Below, in pieces: positions 1,195 through 7,239 of a stretch of DNA of 64,000 nt; within the stretch, counting starts at the first letter, position 1, and every line of letters begins with the position of its first letter. The stretch covers positions 1 to 64,000 of the forward strand of contig JAPZAS010000015.1 in assembly GCA_027460525.1 (NCBI GenBank). Direction: 5' to 3'. This stretch comes from Candidatus Methanoperedens sp. (GTDB taxonomy: Archaea > Halobacteriota > Methanosarcinia > Methanosarcinales > Methanoperedenaceae). The notes under the pieces are model-generated. The model searched no databases and was not told where the DNA came from. It saw nothing but the letters and a program-made list of their open reading frames with translations. The translations under genes and the position numbers were made by a program.

Positions 1195-1303
1195 TCCTCT
1201 TTCTGTCCAAGATCTTAGCATTCGGGCACCAGCCCATTAGCTTCTTTACTCTCTCGGTTATATTTACCAACAATTCAATCGCAGGACTCTTGTTTGCAGG
1301 CAC
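1195..1303 (-). pseudogene. Truncated sixth copy of the MGWCP-tag (DUF1673-like) family
   Basis: Reverse-strand reading gives VNITERVKKLMGWCPNAK followed by a short basic stretch, which matches the N-terminal tag of the five intact genes upstream in the same orientation. After about 30 residues the frame runs antisense into the 3' end of moeA, and no membrane domain follows. There is no ATG at the expected place; a GTG or TTG would be needed, and the ATG at 1303 adds an unrelated leader. I read it as the decayed tail copy of the array. The 1304-1451 stretch between it and the last intact gene holds short open frames on both strands, broken by stops, and no convincing gene. Confidence 0.6.
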
Positions 1304-1451
1304 TCCTCAACCAGTAATGCCTCAACAAGGCAAAAAACAGCTCGCAATTCCGAAAGATGATATCCAGTTGATCTTCCCGTCCATGAAGTAGCTAAAAAGC
1401 GATGAAAAAGTGAACGCCGCAATTGTCATCAGGATTCCTGTTTAATTAGAA

Positions 1452-2054
1452 TCACTTGCTTCCACCTGTATCCACTGCGTAAAAAGATGTTTTCTCCACT
1501 ATCAACGTCTTCCTGTTTTTCCGCTCCCAGTATGCCACCTCAAGGTACTGTGTCCAGACAAATAAAAATAAACCTGAGAGAAAGGCGTAATACCCGCTGA
1601 TGCGTGTCTCAGTTTTTACCAGCAAAAAGCCAGTTACAAAGGCAATTACAGCTATAAATCCACCTATTATTAGGTAGTTAATTACCTTCTTTCTTCGGGT
1701 AATTTGCAACCCCTTGAACTCTCCCGATGCAGCTTTATTGAGCCTGCGCCATTCGGCTATTCCAGTTACTATGCTGGAGAGAACTCCCACAATCAAGCCA
1801 GCCAAGAAAAGGTCCGTGTTATCTTTACCACCTAAAGTAAAAAAGTTGATTGCTAACAGCGTTAAAATAAATGAGTACAATAGAATCCTGTTGCGGTATT
1901 TGTTCCACCATCTTGCATTAGTAGGATTTAATTCCTCACCGCTATCAGGTGCATTTACCATCATGTCATCAAACTGAACGGATTTTCTTGTTTCTATCGT
2001 GCTCGCGTTCGGGCACCAGCCCAGCCATAACCTTAATTTCTGAAAAGCATTCAT
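1452..2054 (-). CDS. MGWCP-tag membrane protein (DUF1673-like), copy E
   Basis: Unknown function. The 200-residue protein starts with a short amphipathic segment and the tag LGWCPNA at residues 11-17, then a polar linker and four predicted membrane helices (about 56-75, 78-99, 124-146, 151-172) with a short tail. The tag is shared with the four genes upstream while the rest is not visibly similar, so the family appears held together by the N-terminus. I connect it to archaeal DUF1673 from memory of Methanosarcina proteins; this was not searched. Its ATG overlaps the stop of copy D by four bases, so it is translationally coupled and is the last intact gene of the operon. Confidence 0.7.
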   Translation of the reverse strand: MNAFQKLRLWLGWCPNASTIETRKSVQFDDMMVNAPDSGEELNPTNARWWNKYRNRILLYSFILTLLAINFFTLGGKDNTDLFLAGLIVGVLSSIVTGIAEWRRLNKAASGEFKGLQITRRKKVINYLIIGGFIAVIAFVTGFLLVKTETRISGYYAFLSGLFLFVWTQYLEVAYWERKNRKTLIVEKTSFYAVDTGGSK

Positions 2055-2650
2055 CCCATTTCCTCTTCTAACCTTTTAATAAATTCTTCAGGATTTTGGG
2101 TGGTCAGTATAAGTTTCCTGAAAAAACCACTCTTTTTTTCGATCAACACCGCGCTCTTACGCATGCTGATAAAGGCAAGTCTCCTTCCCCACAGGCGCAG
2201 ACCCCAACCGGCGTACCAGGGAACGTCTTCTATCGTTTTCATCTCTTTGATTTCGGAAAACGGGATGCTGTATTTAAAAGGAGGCATTACAGCCTCCACG
2301 CCATCGTTTGTAATCCTGAACTTGATGCTGAAAAAGCCCCACGTAACCAGAGCAGAGACTGATACTGTCAGAAGTAAAACGAATTCTGCCTGTTCAGGAG
2401 CTTTTCCAAAGACGGCTATGAAGCACAAAAAAGCCAGTGAGACTAAGCCGGACACCATTACCAGCTTTATCGTATTGCTGTAAGGCGCTTTTTCCTCATA
2501 GACCGTGGTTTTGTTTGCAAACACTCCACCTCCTTTTATCGCCGGCGCGTAAGCATATTCTATTCCTCTGCCCACAACTGTGTTTTTCATGCTCAACATA
2601 GGGCACAAGCCTTCTATTTTTTTAATAGTCTTAAATACGTTTATTGTCAT
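2051..2650 (-). CDS. MGWCP-tag membrane protein (DUF1673-like), copy D, divergent tag
   Basis: This 199-residue copy has a degenerate tag, EGLCPML at about residues 13-19, with Leu in place of the Trp but Cys-Pro kept. Two hydrophobic helices (about 62-82 and 88-108) are followed by a soluble C-terminal half with alternating strands and a terminal amphipathic helix (NPEEFIKRLEEEMG), a pattern like a bacterial PH-type domain. It lies 10 bases after copy C and overlaps copy E by four bases. A membrane-anchored PH-like domain is inferred from the strand and helix pattern only. Function unknown. Confidence 0.65.
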   Translation of the reverse strand: MTINVFKTIKKIEGLCPMLSMKNTVVGRGIEYAYAPAIKGGGVFANKTTVYEEKAPYSNTIKLVMVSGLVSLAFLCFIAVFGKAPEQAEFVLLLTVSVSALVTWGFFSIKFRITNDGVEAVMPPFKYSIPFSEIKEMKTIEDVPWYAGWGLRLWGRRLAFISMRKSAVLIEKKSGFFRKLILTTQNPEEFIKRLEEEMG

Positions 2651-2660
2651 AGCAACTTCC

Positions 2661-3389
2661 TTACCGGTTCAATATTTTATCTCTTGGATTCTTTTGTCTA
2701 ACCTTCTCTATCAAATCAGCTATTTGCCCTGCTTCAGTAGTGTGTATCGTAATCTTATTGACAAAAGGATACGGAGTAAACCGGATCCGGATATTGGATA
2801 CTGACCTGAATGCCTCATACGACTGAAGGCCAACACCAAAACTGAAAAATGTCCATAACAGACTTTGAGCAATATCTACTTGAGAAGCCCCTTCGATGAA
2901 ATACAAAAAAAACAGGAAAAGCCATAGAATCCCAATCAGAAATAAAAAAATATAAAGGAATCGTGGAACATTATTTTTTTGTACCTTTACTGAATCCACT
3001 GAAGACATGGCACGGGTAGTTGCTCCAAAAAGAGGGTTAAGCACTGTGGTTAATCTGATGCGCTTATCAGTAATTTCAACGCTTGTTTTTGAAAGAGTGA
3101 ATTGGAGCAACAATGCGGAAAGCATTATTAAAATAAGTAAATATGAATTAAAAAATGGACTAAACCATAGGATTGCAAAAATCAATGCCATTGTTATGTA
3201 AATAATAGTCACTTTTGTTATTCCAGCGGCATAGACATTCTTCAGTCGGATGGATATAAATAACGATGGTTTTGAATATGATCCCATTTCAAAAATCTCT
3301 TCCTCCTTTTGCAAGGTGATTTTTTTATTTAATGCCGCGTTCGGACACCAGCCCATCATTTTCCTGATATTTTCGATAAATGCAGTCAT
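2661..3389 (-). CDS. MGWCP-tag membrane protein (DUF1673-like), copy C
   Basis: A 242-residue protein beginning MTAFIENIRKMMGWCPNA, the clearest form of the shared N-terminal tag. Hydrophobic segments lie near residues 57-75, 79-98, 143-165 and a weaker one near 170-190. The loop after the second helix (SVEITDKRIRLTTVL) and the C-terminal stretch with its last helix again look like a split PH-like fold embedded between membrane pairs. Start ATG 3389 overlaps the stop of copy B by four bases. Sequence is AT-rich compared with moeA. Role unknown; being in an operon with a Cys-rich regulator suggests a regulated envelope function (inference). Confidence 0.7.
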   Translation of the reverse strand: MTAFIENIRKMMGWCPNAALNKKITLQKEEEIFEMGSYSKPSLFISIRLKNVYAAGITKVTIIYITMALIFAILWFSPFFNSYLLILIMLSALLLQFTLSKTSVEITDKRIRLTTVLNPLFGATTRAMSSVDSVKVQKNNVPRFLYIFLFLIGILWLFLFFLYFIEGASQVDIAQSLLWTFFSFGVGLQSYEAFRSVSNIRIRFTPYPFVNKITIHTTEAGQIADLIEKVRQKNPRDKILNR

Positions 3390-4120
3390 TTAACCCCAGC
3401 CAACTTATTTTCCATGTCCTGCGGATTATCAACATAAAGAGTGATTTCTTTGTTATTCTGTGCCGTTACTTTAAGCGCATCAGGGTAGTAGGACCTGATA
3501 TAGGCTTTATAGAAAAAAACCACAAACAATATCATTGTAGTCACCTCTAACAAAACAAATGAAATAATTACTGCAAGGGGGTCGTTCTGCGCAATATAAC
3601 GGGATACAGTATTTACAGCATCCATTATTAGAAATACCTGCACAAGTATCATCGGTGGCAGAAATATCAAACGCATCGTATGATTTATATTCTTTATAAC
3701 TTCTGTTTTCAGGATACTGTCTTTCGATATAACAATAGGGTGAAGGACCGGTCTTTTAATAATTATCGCGTTTGAAGTAAATATGACATGGGTTCTATCT
3801 TGGTACAATAATACTAGAGAGGCAAGAAGAAGTAGCAAAACAAGGAGCCAAGGAACGAGATTTCCGATTTCTGGAAAAACAAAACCTGCTGTAATTAAAA
3901 TGAGGAGACCAAAAAAAACTGAGAATAAAATAATCGCTATTGTCTCAAATCTCAAATATCTGTAATCTATAACTATCTTTGTACCCTTTTCTGAAAAATC
4001 ATCATTTTTATAAGGTGTAACTGAAACCGTTTCACAATTTCCCTTCATCGCATGCATTAGATTAAAGTCTTCTTGTGGGCACCAGCCCATCATTTTCCTG
4101 ACATATTCAAAAGAAAACAT
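3386..4120 (-). CDS. MGWCP-tag membrane protein (DUF1673-like), copy B
   Basis: I place the start at ATG 4118-4120 rather than the in-frame ATG at 4147: the inner start gives MFSFEYVRKMMGWCPQ, which aligns with the other tags, is preceded by an AGGAG ribosome site about nine bases away, and begins one base after the stop of copy A. The protein is then 244 residues. Four strong hydrophobic helices occur in two pairs, with a strand-rich domain between them (HVIFTSNAIIIKRPVL) and a C-terminal NPQDMENKLAG helix as expected of a PH-like fold. The tag here ends in Gln-Glu instead of Asn-Ala. Function unknown. Confidence 0.7.
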   Translation of the reverse strand: MFSFEYVRKMMGWCPQEDFNLMHAMKGNCETVSVTPYKNDDFSEKGTKIVIDYRYLRFETIAIILFSVFFGLLILITAGFVFPEIGNLVPWLLVLLLLLASLVLLYQDRTHVIFTSNAIIIKRPVLHPIVISKDSILKTEVIKNINHTMRLIFLPPMILVQVFLIMDAVNTVSRYIAQNDPLAVIISFVLLEVTTMILFVVFFYKAYIRSYYPDALKVTAQNNKEITLYVDNPQDMENKLAGVK

Positions 4121-4121
4121 T

Positions 4122-4853
4122 TCAATTTGCACTCCTGTAATGTTCAATGGCAGCCTGTATTCCAGATGCGGTCGTCTCGTCTGTTATGATTGAATAATAC
4201 GTTAGTTCATACCAACGTCGGTTTTTGTCTTCATACTGAATGTACAATTGTGTATTTAGATTATGATATGCCCTGTCTTGCTTATGTTTGGCTAGTAAAT
4301 ATAAGGGGAATAGTGGAGCAATTGATATAATCAAATTCCATTTTCCTGACATTATTGAGTCAGCAAGCAATGCAACAAGCATTGCAACAAGAATCAATAA
4401 CGCTATCGCAATTAGTCCGATTGGAGGATTTACGACTTTTTTTATAGTGATGGATTTAATGTCTCTATAATTTAGTATTACGTCTCTTAACTCGAAATAT
4501 CGTAAAAGCACACCGTTTTCATCAATTGAAATATGCGCCTTAAACGTTTTAGCCGCAATGAAATAAAGTAAGGAATATATTCCAACGAGAATTGGGATCA
4601 AGATTGCATAATCCAGATTTAGGGCAAAAGCCAATATCAGATTCAAGCTCATCGCAAAGCAAAGAGTGAACAAGATTGTGTTTGAAGAAAACATTACATT
4701 TTTAGATAGAAATTTTTCAACATTTGGTCTACCAGGGGGTTCCAGTGAAAGGTTTGCAAAATCGACAGATCGGATATATTTAGGTATCACTGGATTTGCA
4801 TTCGGGCACCAGCCCATCATTTTTCGTACCGTTTCCATTACATTCATCGTCAT
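4122..4853 (-). CDS. MGWCP-tag membrane protein (DUF1673-like), copy A
   Basis: First of five tandem membrane genes. The 243-residue product starts MTMNVMETVRKMMGWCPNA, has two helices around residues 57-98, a soluble insert with strands (HISIDENGVLLRYFEL), two further helices around 145-195, and ends with a helix GIQAAIEHYRSAN. Its ATG overlaps the stop of the HTH regulator gene by four bases, so regulator and membrane proteins form one coupled transcript. The repeated plan of tag, membrane pair, strand-rich insert, membrane pair, terminal helix across copies A-C supports common ancestry even where residues no longer match. Confidence 0.7.
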   Translation of the reverse strand: MTMNVMETVRKMMGWCPNANPVIPKYIRSVDFANLSLEPPGRPNVEKFLSKNVMFSSNTILFTLCFAMSLNLILAFALNLDYAILIPILVGIYSLLYFIAAKTFKAHISIDENGVLLRYFELRDVILNYRDIKSITIKKVVNPPIGLIAIALLILVAMLVALLADSIMSGKWNLIISIAPLFPLYLLAKHKQDRAYHNLNTQLYIQYEDKNRRWYELTYYSIITDETTASGIQAAIEHYRSAN

Positions 4854-5296
4854 GCCAAACTCCTCAGCTTCCCAAAAAGCTCATCCGCCAGCTTCGTCGG
4901 GTCATCTGTCTTTTCAAGCTTAATTTTCATCTCATCAGCGAAATCCCACAGCAGTTCAATGCATTGCGTATATCTCGCGCAAGCGCCGCAGTCACCTTCG
5001 TGCTCGTACCACACCTGCATCCCATGCTTTGCAGATACGAAAATAATGGCGCCGGCATTAAACGGCGCCGAGTGACCGAACAGGATACCGCACTCTGCGT
5101 TCATTTTCTCTACCTCTATCTGATTTGCCCCTGCCATCTCAAGCAGCGTTTTTTCTATCTTCTCATCCATAGAGATGAGCGCCCTGGATACTGCCTGTTT
5201 GGATATATTGAAGGAGCGCGCAATGTTTATGCTGGGAAGACCGCTGCGTCTTAGCCTCCAGAACTCAAACTGCTTATCATTTACAGGCAGGAACAT
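4850..5296 (-). CDS. HTH regulator with Cys cluster, head of the MGWCP operon
   Basis: A 148-residue predicted transcription factor. Residues 11-42 form a helix-turn-helix (WRLRRSGLPSINIARSFN then ISKQAVSRAL) of the kind that reads operator DNA. The C-terminal domain has a CxxC-x5-C group at C103, C106 and C112 plus C69, which could bind metal, an iron-sulfur cluster or sense redox state (inference). It is the first gene of the operon and overlaps copy A by four bases. A perfect inverted repeat sits just before its start codon, between TATA box and start, so autorepression is likely. The short distance from TATA to ATG suggests a leaderless mRNA. Start ATG 5296 is supported by this promoter spacing. 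Confidence 0.8.
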   Translation of the reverse strand: MFLPVNDKQFEFWRLRRSGLPSINIARSFNISKQAVSRALISMDEKIEKTLLEMAGANQIEVEKMNAECGILFGHSAPFNAGAIIFVSAKHGMQVWYEHEGDCGACARYTQCIELLWDFADEMKIKLEKTDDPTKLADELFGKLRSLA

Positions 5297-5297
5297 G

Positions 5298-5333
5298 AGT
5301 CAACGTATGCATGTTGACTATTTATATTTTTTG
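5298..5333 (-). promoter_or_regulatory. Promoter and operator of the HTH / MGWCP operon
   Basis: The arms AGTCAAC (5298-5304) and GTTGACT (5313-5319) are perfect 7-base inverted repeats around an 8-base spacer that contains ATGCAT. The reverse-strand TATA-like tract AAAAATATAAA follows at about 5321-5332. The palindrome therefore lies between TATA box and start codon, overlapping the expected transcription start, a classic place for an archaeal repressor to block RNA polymerase. Confidence 0.7.
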
Positions 5334-5480: not shown

Positions 5481-6407
5481 ATGTTCACCGGTCTAAATAG
5501 ATCCATTGTATTGATGGGGATACTGATCTCCTTGATTTTACTATCAACTCCAGGCTATGCAGAGTCCGTGCCATCCAGAATAAACGTCTCAATCTATGCC
5601 TATAACATACACGGTTTCGATGTATCCACAGGTTCATACGATGTAGATTTCTACATCCACTTTAAATGGAATGCAGATGAGGTACCAAAGAACACCTCTG
5701 ATCAAGTAACCTCATTTGACCTTATGAATGGACGCATTGACAGCCAGAAAACAATATCCAGTGCTCCTGGAGATATATGGCTTGGGGTTTCGGGAACATT
5801 TAACAAACGGGTTGATCTTAAAGATTACCCTGTGGACACGCAAACAATGACCATAGAATTAGAGAATTCAAACCTGAATAACTCCGACCTGATTTATGTC
5901 GCTGACACGAACGAAAGTTCACTGGATAAAGGTGTGGAGGTTCTGGGCTGGGTAATCAAGGGCTGGGATATTTATACTACAGACCATTTCTATCCAACCT
6001 TTAACGAAACCTATACGCGCCTTGTCTATAAGATGACTATAACCAGATATATCTCCATCCTGTTCAAAACAGTGCTGCCGGCTATGATTTTACTGGTAAT
6101 AGGTTTATTTGCCTTCCTCATACCTCCGGCTGACCTGTTCGAACGGCTTGGTCTTCTCATTGCAGTCGTTCTCGGCTCATTCCAGCACCATTTAGCTGTG
6201 AGCGGTACAATACCTCCTGCTCCCTACCTGACGCTGATCGATGCAATAATGGTCACCAATTACATCACACAGGGTTTTATTATCATAATATCGATTTATC
6301 TTTTCAGGCAAGAAGAGGAGCGGGGAATTAGATTGAATAAAATGATGCCGTTCGTCACCGTGGCACTGGCATTAATAATGTTTGTTTTATTATGGGAATT
6401 CCTTTGA
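5481..6407 (+). CDS. Pentameric ligand-gated ion channel homologue (Cys-loop-like)
   Basis: A 308-residue membrane protein with the architecture of prokaryotic pLGICs such as GLIC and ELIC. Residues 1-27 form a signal peptide ending in GYA; residues 28-190 are a beta-rich extracellular domain with the typical DFYIHFKW strand and VDLKDYPVDTQTMTIELEN, the counterpart of the Cys-loop strand. Four helices follow: M1 about 191-213, M2 219-242, M3 250-276 and M4 287-306. The M2-M3 linker TIPPAPYLTLIDAIM closely resembles the GLIC linker. The protein has no cysteine, as in other prokaryotic members. ATG 5481 is set by the promoter. Ligand and ion selectivity cannot be read; M2 lacks an obvious acidic ring apart from E221 at its inner end. 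Confidence 0.87.
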   Translation: MFTGLNRSIVLMGILISLILLSTPGYAESVPSRINVSIYAYNIHGFDVSTGSYDVDFYIHFKWNADEVPKNTSDQVTSFDLMNGRIDSQKTISSAPGDIWLGVSGTFNKRVDLKDYPVDTQTMTIELENSNLNNSDLIYVADTNESSLDKGVEVLGWVIKGWDIYTTDHFYPTFNETYTRLVYKMTITRYISILFKTVLPAMILLVIGLFAFLIPPADLFERLGLLIAVVLGSFQHHLAVSGTIPPAPYLTLIDAIMVTNYITQGFIIIISIYLFRQEEERGIRLNKMMPFVTVALALIMFVLLWEFL

Positions 6408-6465: not shown

Positions 6466-7239
6466 ATGAAGAAAATCCTTTTTTTGGTTATTGTATTACT
6501 GCTGATCATCATATCTTCTATAACGGTTGTGCTGGTTCAGGAAAAAAAGATAAGCGAATTTGAAAAATTTAATAAATCCATAACTAACGAATCCATAGTA
6601 TTCCTTGCAGAAGGAGAGAGGGATGGTCCTCTACTTGTTCAGAAAATTTATTCCGACCATATAGAGGGTTTAAATTTCAGAGAATATCCGATTGCAACGA
6701 ATAAAGGAACCCCGATAAATCTGAGCATCGGACAGGCTGCAAGCAACGGCTGCACCATAACCCTTACCCTGATAGGGATAGAGAATACGATGGCTAAATT
6801 TTCAAAGAAAGTGGTATCAAACAGGCCATGTCCGATATGTCTTTCAGGAAATACCTACATCGATACCCCAAACGGAAGCGTCTATGTTAAAGATTTGCAG
6901 GAGGGCATGGGGGTCTGGACATCCGATAAGTCTGGTTCCAGGCATGCTGCCATAATTCTCAGGACTTCAAAAGCAGAAGTACCAAAAGATTTTCAGTTGG
7001 TTTATCTTGCGCTTGACGATGGGCGCGGACTTTTTGCGTCACCCGGGCATCCGTTAGCGGATGGCAGAGTTCTTGGCAGCATCAAAGAAGGCGATATTAT
7101 GGATGATCATATCGTGGTAATTGCCAGGCGTATTCCTTACGAGGGAACATACACGTATGATATTTTGCCATCCGGAGATACGGGGTCATACTGGGCAAAT
7201 GGCATTCCTGTCAGAAGTTCTCTTGCTGCATCAAAGTGA
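6466..7239 (+). CDS. Membrane-anchored or secreted protein with C-terminal Hint (intein/hedgehog-like) domain
   Basis: 257 residues. Residues 4-24 form an uncleaved anchor or signal peptide; residues 30-120 are a beta-rich domain I do not recognise. From C125 the sequence has Hint features: nucleophile position in ICLSGNTYI followed by VYVKDLQEGM, the block-B-like SPGHPL with H195, and the last strand TYDILPSGDTGSYWANGI. Hint domains cleave the backbone at their N-terminal Cys. The usual terminal His-Asn is missing (the end reads IPVRSSL), so C-terminal cleavage and splicing are unlikely; N-terminal autoproteolysis, hedgehog-like transfer, or an inert fold remain possible. It follows the ion channel by 58 bases but has its own promoter. 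Confidence 0.75.
   Translation: MKKILFLVIVLLLIIISSITVVLVQEKKISEFEKFNKSITNESIVFLAEGERDGPLLVQKIYSDHIEGLNFREYPIATNKGTPINLSIGQAASNGCTITLTLIGIENTMAKFSKKVVSNRPCPICLSGNTYIDTPNGSVYVKDLQEGMGVWTSDKSGSRHAAIILRTSKAEVPKDFQLVYLALDDGRGLFASPGHPLADGRVLGSIKEGDIMDDHIVVIARRIPYEGTYTYDILPSGDTGSYWANGIPVRSSLAASK

Follow-up and report, generated by a model that had tools for sequence, protein, structure and literature searches.

A shared N-terminal tag on unrelated membrane proteins encoded behind a Tfx/EnfR-like regulator in Candidatus Methanoperedens and related archaea

Introduction

In Bacillus subtilis, arrival of the toxin leads the membrane-bound immunity protein SdpI to sequester SdpR, the autorepressor of the operon that encodes SdpI (PMC1626106). 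A locus that recalls this pair was found at positions 1195-5333 of a 64,000-nucleotide stretch of Candidatus Methanoperedens sp. (contig JAPZAS010000015.1, positions 1 to 64,000 of the forward strand), which as a whole is called the window. Here, too, a regulator and membrane proteins share one operon, and the operator architecture is consistent with a predicted autorepressor that heads the operon and has a site in its own promoter. The differences are that the array is archaeal, that its regulator is Tfx/EnfR-like with a Cys cluster, and that a single regulator stands before membrane proteins of unrelated families, up to about 12-15 of them, which have an N-terminal peptide, the tag, in common. 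The arrangement also resembles that of anti-sigma factors, in which a short conserved cytosolic module, joined to variable membrane sensors, controls a transcription factor; in the array, the module is a peptide of ~16 residues, there are many receptors per regulator and the target would be a repressor.

The tag has been recorded before, as a table of Makarova et al. 2014 contains the entry "Membrane protein expansion in Methanosarcina, MGWCP motif, DUF1673" (PMC4158269), and the supercluster concerned (SC.00027; arCOG06827, PF07895) is listed in PMC4390880. A full-text literature search, with subscription journals mostly outside its scope, gave no further mention of DUF1673 or MGWCP, and a search by guessed M. 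acetivorans locus tags found no papers. An earlier note on this DNA, made from the sequence alone, had held that the system was not described; within the reach of this search, this stands for the regulator, the operator and the system as such, but not for the motif and the Methanosarcina expansion (PMC4158269).

Results

Layout of the locus

All genes of the block lie on the minus strand, in the order promoter, regulator, five tagged membrane proteins and the remnant of a sixth. The tag codons were located by codon-pattern scan and from the sequence.

5319..5332, minus strand: TATA-box-like element AAAAAATATAAATA (minus-strand letters), directly upstream of the operator, from the sequence
5299..5318, no strand assigned: palindromic operator GTCAACATGCATACGTTGAC, 20 bp, between TATA box and start codon, from the upstream-region pattern search
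4850..5296, minus strand: regulator, 148 amino acids; helix-turn-helix (HTH), long helix and alpha/beta domain with C103-X2-C106-X5-C112
4122..4853, minus strand: copy A, tagged membrane protein, MGWCPNA (MGWCP codons 4804-4817); PH-like by inspection
3386..4147, minus strand: copy B, tagged membrane protein, MGWCPQE (tag codons 4077-4090); probable start ATG at 4120
2661..3389, minus strand: copy C, tagged membrane protein, MGWCPNA (tag codons 3343-3356)
2051..2650, minus strand: copy D, tagged membrane protein, EGLCPML (tag codons 2600-2611); weak bPH_4 match
1452..2054, minus strand: copy E, tagged membrane protein, LGWCPNA (tag codons 2010-2021); true DUF1673 body (PF07895, E 1.5e-31)
1195..~1303, minus strand: remnant F, which retains the N-terminal helix and the MGWCPNA tag (tag codons 1224-1237) but no body; abuts the end of moeA

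The genes were recovered at the positions given in the earlier note, as were the sixth fragment beside moeA and the regulator's own Cys cluster (CGACARYTQC); what had been counted as six membrane proteins are five complete ones and a remnant. With the genes on one strand, close spacing and a single promoter in front, the layout appears operon-like, and the start of copy A overlaps the regulator stop (ATGA).

The same gene order was seen elsewhere. In ~120 loci the array begins with the regulator, whose identity across the phylum is 55-90%; the gene behind it nearly always carries the tag, and the two usually overlap. With starts approximated, the gap from the regulator to the first gene has a median of -4 nucleotides (nt) and lies within 60 nt in 111/120, and the gap between tagged genes has a median of 0 nt. 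The unfiltered locus lists revealed no tagged array gene on the opposite strand.

A portable tag on unrelated membrane proteins

From ~130 regulator-centred loci of Methanosarcinales and the wider phylum, the sequence downstream of the tag, here called the body, was clustered. The bodies of the window fall into five BLAST clusters and are not the paralogues of one homologous family assumed earlier; across the order there are 14 clusters, and 24 in the phylum set, a few of them being chance open reading frames (ORFs). Tagged bodies include SdpI with DUF1648 in loci L185 and L211 (profile E 6e-17 and 2.5e-16), a further likeness to SdpR/SdpI, as well as Yip1 (E 1.3e-19), a polysaccharide flippase (E 1.4e-20), PLDc_N (E 7e-7), DUF6159 (E 2e-6 to 4e-7), PH-like proteins and the C-terminal domain of the AglB/STT3 oligosaccharyltransferase (profile match to 3vgp, E 3.6e-7). 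In two Methanosarcina-type genomes, the MGWCP-tagged flippase gene is preceded by a second copy of the regulator (L113:4671-6377 and L112:10127-11803). Profile search of the window proteins found no member of the SdpI/YfhL family. The tag is, in short, a portable N-terminal module on unrelated membrane proteins.

This bears on the family name. The earlier note had taken the family to be DUF1673, which applies to copies E and B, scoring 110.4 and 37.2 against PF07895 (gathering cut-off 30.4), but not to F (28.2), C (22.5) and A (19.1), which stay below, nor to D, which gave no PF07895 match in the profile search of window proteins. Because the tag itself forms the first ~27 positions of the profile, only B and E exceed the cut-off; F, A and C match mainly through these positions. 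The name DUF1673 groups unrelated bodies via the tag, and the tag occurs on other families too.

In the model of copy B (predicted local distance difference test score, pLDDT, 82), a first pair of transmembrane helices is followed by four strands, a second such pair, two strands and a helix, which may be read as two transmembrane hairpins with a split PH-like domain; its top Foldseek matches all include PH domains, e.g. GRK2 (prob 1.0, E 0.04), a likeness at the level of the fold only. A known anti-phage defence family was also considered and rejected, as PADLOC models gave no match for the regulator, the five tagged window proteins and four other bodies. Separately, two Methanoperedens genomes encode a large untagged multi-transmembrane protein in or beside the array (L073:5808-7535, L085:1-764), by eye possibly glycosyltransferase-like.

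Occurrence and retention of the tag

The tag codon pattern ATGGGNTGGTGYCC was scanned in 150 genomes of the order with the reversed pattern as control, and the genome lists for regulator and pattern were matched by hand. It was present in 60/70 genomes with the regulator versus 5/80 without, and the reversed pattern was found in ~15/150, with one or two matches each. As the pattern tracks the presence of the regulator and the control is rare, the occurrence of the tag is not due to chance. The ten regulator genomes without it mostly have LGWCP instead of MGWCP and so lie outside the pattern. Matches in the regulator-less genomes G111, G113 and G146 lie outside any tagged ORF and are attributed to chance; G010 has a real array in a fragmented assembly, where the regulator was not found.

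A tag-blind census, collecting homologues with hidden Markov models of the bodies, gave 370 array-located proteins. G[WL]C[PR] is intact in 329/370; 11/370 keep the Cys with a neighbouring residue changed, and 30/370 are without the tag Cys, many of them 5' fragments. The earlier note had named free loss of the tag or frequent replacement of the Cys as counting against its reading; neither was seen, ~92% of array members keeping the Cys, with four clear substitutions. It is the least variable tag residue and persists even in GLCR, SWCP, GRCP and AWCP variants. The 48 copy-B-type proteins share 15-38% identity with copy B, and no column apart from G-W-C-P is invariant among them; these rows were gathered via the tag, so that the invariance tells how little else is conserved. 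Both between genomes and inside a single genome, the tag shows free variation in its codons for Gly (GGA/C/G/T) and Cys (TGC/TGT), which indicates that selection acts on the peptide.

Heads and bodies assort differently. In family f8 (loci with Methanoculleus-like regulators), identity over the 11 residues that precede the tag is 84% between first genes whose bodies differ, versus 37% between same-body genes at different positions, and family f1 has the same trend (0.49 vs 0.33). In these comparisons, the head goes with the position in the array and not with the body: it stays with the regulator, bodies being exchanged behind it. Remnant F fits such exchange, as do distal members with decayed tags (MRWHP, MGWFT), Cys lost and body intact (L084 11827 and 12614, L107 8784).

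Regulator and operator

The AlphaFold model of the regulator (pLDDT mostly >90) has helices at 8-17, 22-29 and 33-57, four strands, and helices at 109-122 and 133-151. They form an HTH, then a long stem helix, then an alpha/beta head with the Cys cluster, the same order as in Tfx/EnfR proteins (TIGR00721; EnfR PDB 8hno). The best Foldseek matches are EnfR structures (prob 0.90, E 0.1; template modelling score 0.27-0.37). With TIGR00721, the score was 14.7 bits (E 0.022) and the curated cut-off of 60.25 was not reached, for which reason the regulator is termed Tfx/EnfR-like, a distant relative and not a Tfx family member. A search of the PDB with a single regulator sequence gave no match, a search with the regulator profile matched the HTH alone, and no relatives were found among viral contigs. 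C103, C106 and C112 (CX2CX5C) are present in 126/126 aligned regulators that cover these positions.

EnfR is a repressor with a palindromic site near the start codon, its footprint reaching from -44 to +3, centred at -21 from the start codon; the paper describing it mentions no cysteine or metal and reports no membrane partners (PMC10570040). In the arrays, the pattern GT[CA]AA[CT]-N8-[AG]TT[GT]AC, a palindrome of the form GTCAAC-N8-GTTGAC, was found upstream of 123/128 regulators, exactly 22 nt before the start codon in 119/128, against a chance rate of 1.6e-4 in shuffled upstream sequences. An A/T-rich TATA-like box abuts it in ~120 loci. Archaeal sites between TATA box and start codon usually repress. 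In the window genome, GTCAAC-N8-[AG]TTGAC occurs once only, at 5299-5318.

Further regulon members were found in three related genomes, where a tagged gene of AglB-C-terminal type, unlinked to any regulator, has the same operator at the same distance (L226 2873-4157; L230 1814-3098; L231 from 994). The proteins start with the same residues as the regulator (VFLPLN), as though these genes had taken over the promoter and initial codons of a regulator gene.

Distant regulators, 38% identical, were noted at L213:867-1839 and L220:3910-4455. Behind them comes a bPH_5 protein in L213 and no more than a short N-terminal stretch in L220. The downstream stretches read FCRIPPDG or LLCKIPPDG, with the Cys kept and GWCP absent, and in L213 there is also GTAAAC..GTTTAC upstream. 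These loci are possibly an older form of the system.

Two classes of regulator, operator and tag

Regulators preceding GLC[RP] tags form one clade (support 100/100; 13 rows, one with VLCPK), found in Methanomicrobiales-type genomes with another operator, GTAAA[TC]..ATTTAC, in 12/12. Both classes coexist in several genomes, each regulator with its own kind of tag. In the DUF6159 body family, the tag is GWCP where the regulator is of the GWC class (7) and GLC[RP] where it is of the GLC class (23), and the same genomes contain both; since one body family bears either tag according to the regulator class, the tag follows the regulator, not the body. The residues of the regulator that separate the classes lie in the recognition helix (32, 35, 38) and around the Cys cluster (84, I>Y; 115, L>F; 116, L>I). 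Direct contact would predict such a size change, with the smaller tag residue (W>L) facing a larger one in the socket.

In GLC-class loci, a second GTAAAT-type operator lies at -22 of a secreted-protein gene near the tagged genes, on the same strand where checked, at the following positions:

L186, 13667
L193, 10357
L196, 1872
L201, 5823
L203, 6248
L215, 4652
L216, 5755
L218, 5753
L221, 7841

Discussion

We propose that one local autorepressor is captured, via the tag, by variable membrane proteins in an SdpR/SdpI-like manner, a reading to which we give an even chance of being right. A regulator dimer would bind the palindrome in its own promoter and block transcription of the operon. Each membrane protein would present the same peptide at a cytosolic N terminus, in the form of a short amphipathic helix with G-W-C-P at its end. 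Once a disturbance is sensed by the part in the membrane or envelope, the tag would capture the regulator via its Cys-containing domain, and with the regulator held at the membrane the operon would be induced and more of the array made. As the tag alone would suffice for the link to the regulator, unrelated membrane proteins could be plugged in by recombination downstream of it, and one regulator would serve many interchangeable receptors. The earlier suggestion that the tag recruits a shared partner, with different bodies giving diverse outputs, fits this, the evidence pointing to the regulator encoded first in the operon as the partner that the tag would bind.

Our leading guess for the input, held with low confidence, is immunity against membrane-active toxins or general envelope stress. 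It draws on SdpI among the bodies and on the SdpR/SdpI analogy, and YknW, which we take to be a Yip1 protein, points the same way. YknW belongs to the SDP efflux pump (PMC4887032). More speculatively, and in our view rather unlikely to hold, the tag Cys and the CX2CX5C of the regulator would form one shared metal, Fe-S or disulfide site. The tag would then be a universal plug of ~16 residues that gives each membrane protein acquiring it control over one and the same repressor; archaea could evolve new membrane sensors by exchanging cassettes behind it, and GLC[R/P] with its own operator would be a second, orthogonal plug-socket pair.

Several points weigh against capture of the regulator by the tag. 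The tag Cys is absent in ~8% of array-located homologues, and a few Cys-substituted homologues look full-length. In L232, L233 and L234, a GTCAAC-type palindrome lies 52-64 nt upstream of untagged Yip1-like genes, away from the array. Co-inheritance of the whole operon could by itself explain part of the covariation of regulator, operator and tag. The model hints at docking of the tag only weakly: the regulator was modelled on a natural read-through of the regulator and the first tagged gene (L101, TGA read as Gly), in which MGWC lies in the only appended part with pLDDT >50 and is assigned as a strand, but the alignment contained three fused rows and the confidence is too low for the hint to count.

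Among the alternatives, the one that survives best, though we think it unlikely, is an ordinary autorepressed operon in which the tag recruits a third partner, such as a chaperone, protease, insertase or scaffold, for assembly or localisation. An N-terminal, amphipathic, invariant peptide on unrelated membrane-protein types could serve any common partner. Against this, the regulator is the one gene that nearly always accompanies the tagged genes, no further recurring gene having been noticed in the loci, and inside single genomes a switch of tag variant goes along with a switch of regulator clade and operator variant.

It seems improbable that the tag Cys serves each membrane protein on its own as a redox, metal or heme site, with no part played by the regulator. 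The constancy of the Cys across the tag variants would suit such a site, as would the N-terminal Cys retained in the divergent loci L213 and L220; but a lone Cys is unlikely to bind metal by itself, the heme-type Cys-Pro becomes Cys-Arg in 18 genes, and the linkage to the regulator would be left unexplained. The heme-regulatory motif raised in the earlier note was rejected on the same count, as it needs Cys-Pro, yet 18/23 GLC-class tags of the DUF6159 cluster read Cys-Arg. Of the thiol modification raised with it, the lipid type was dropped for want of a lipobox, since Trp or Leu precedes the Cys and no signal peptide was seen by inspection. Heme or lipid modification of the tag is unlikely.

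We regard it as very improbable that the regulator is an activator or a global regulator and the tagged genes mere neighbours in an envelope-stress regulon: second operators do precede a secreted protein (GLC loci) and untagged Yip1 (Methanoregula-like genomes), but the operator lies where archaeal repressors act, and the window genome (G000) has a single site. Conservation of the tag as DNA, i.e. as a recombination site for cassette swaps or as an operator or RNA element, is already disfavoured and hardly credible, for although GGGC-TGGT-GCCC is a small inverted repeat and heads follow position with bodies swapped behind them, the Gly and Cys codons are free to vary and non-first genes with diverged heads still keep GWCP as protein.

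Two plus-strand genes near the array in the window deserve mention. At 5481-6407 (plus strand) lies, as divergently transcribed neighbour, a homologue of pentameric ligand-gated ion channels (TIGR00860 E 4e-13; Neur_chan_LBD E 4e-6), unusual for an archaeon and no conserved array neighbour in the loci seen. The product of 6466-7239 (plus strand) is secreted or anchored and contains a Hint (intein-like) domain, apparently without a second part (PF13403 E 6e-5, under cut-off).

The name DUF1673 should be used with caution, as it rides on the tag and not on a common body. If capture of the regulator by the tag is correct, a large "dark matter" membrane-protein family of methanogens and anaerobic methane oxidisers would gain a function, and a complete regulon of regulator, operator and targets would be defined. 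The coexistence of two classes in single genomes makes the specificity between regulator and tag directly testable. The array would represent a modular route by which arbitrary membrane sensors are linked to one transcription switch, and its parts would be usable as membrane-sensor modules in archaeal genetics.

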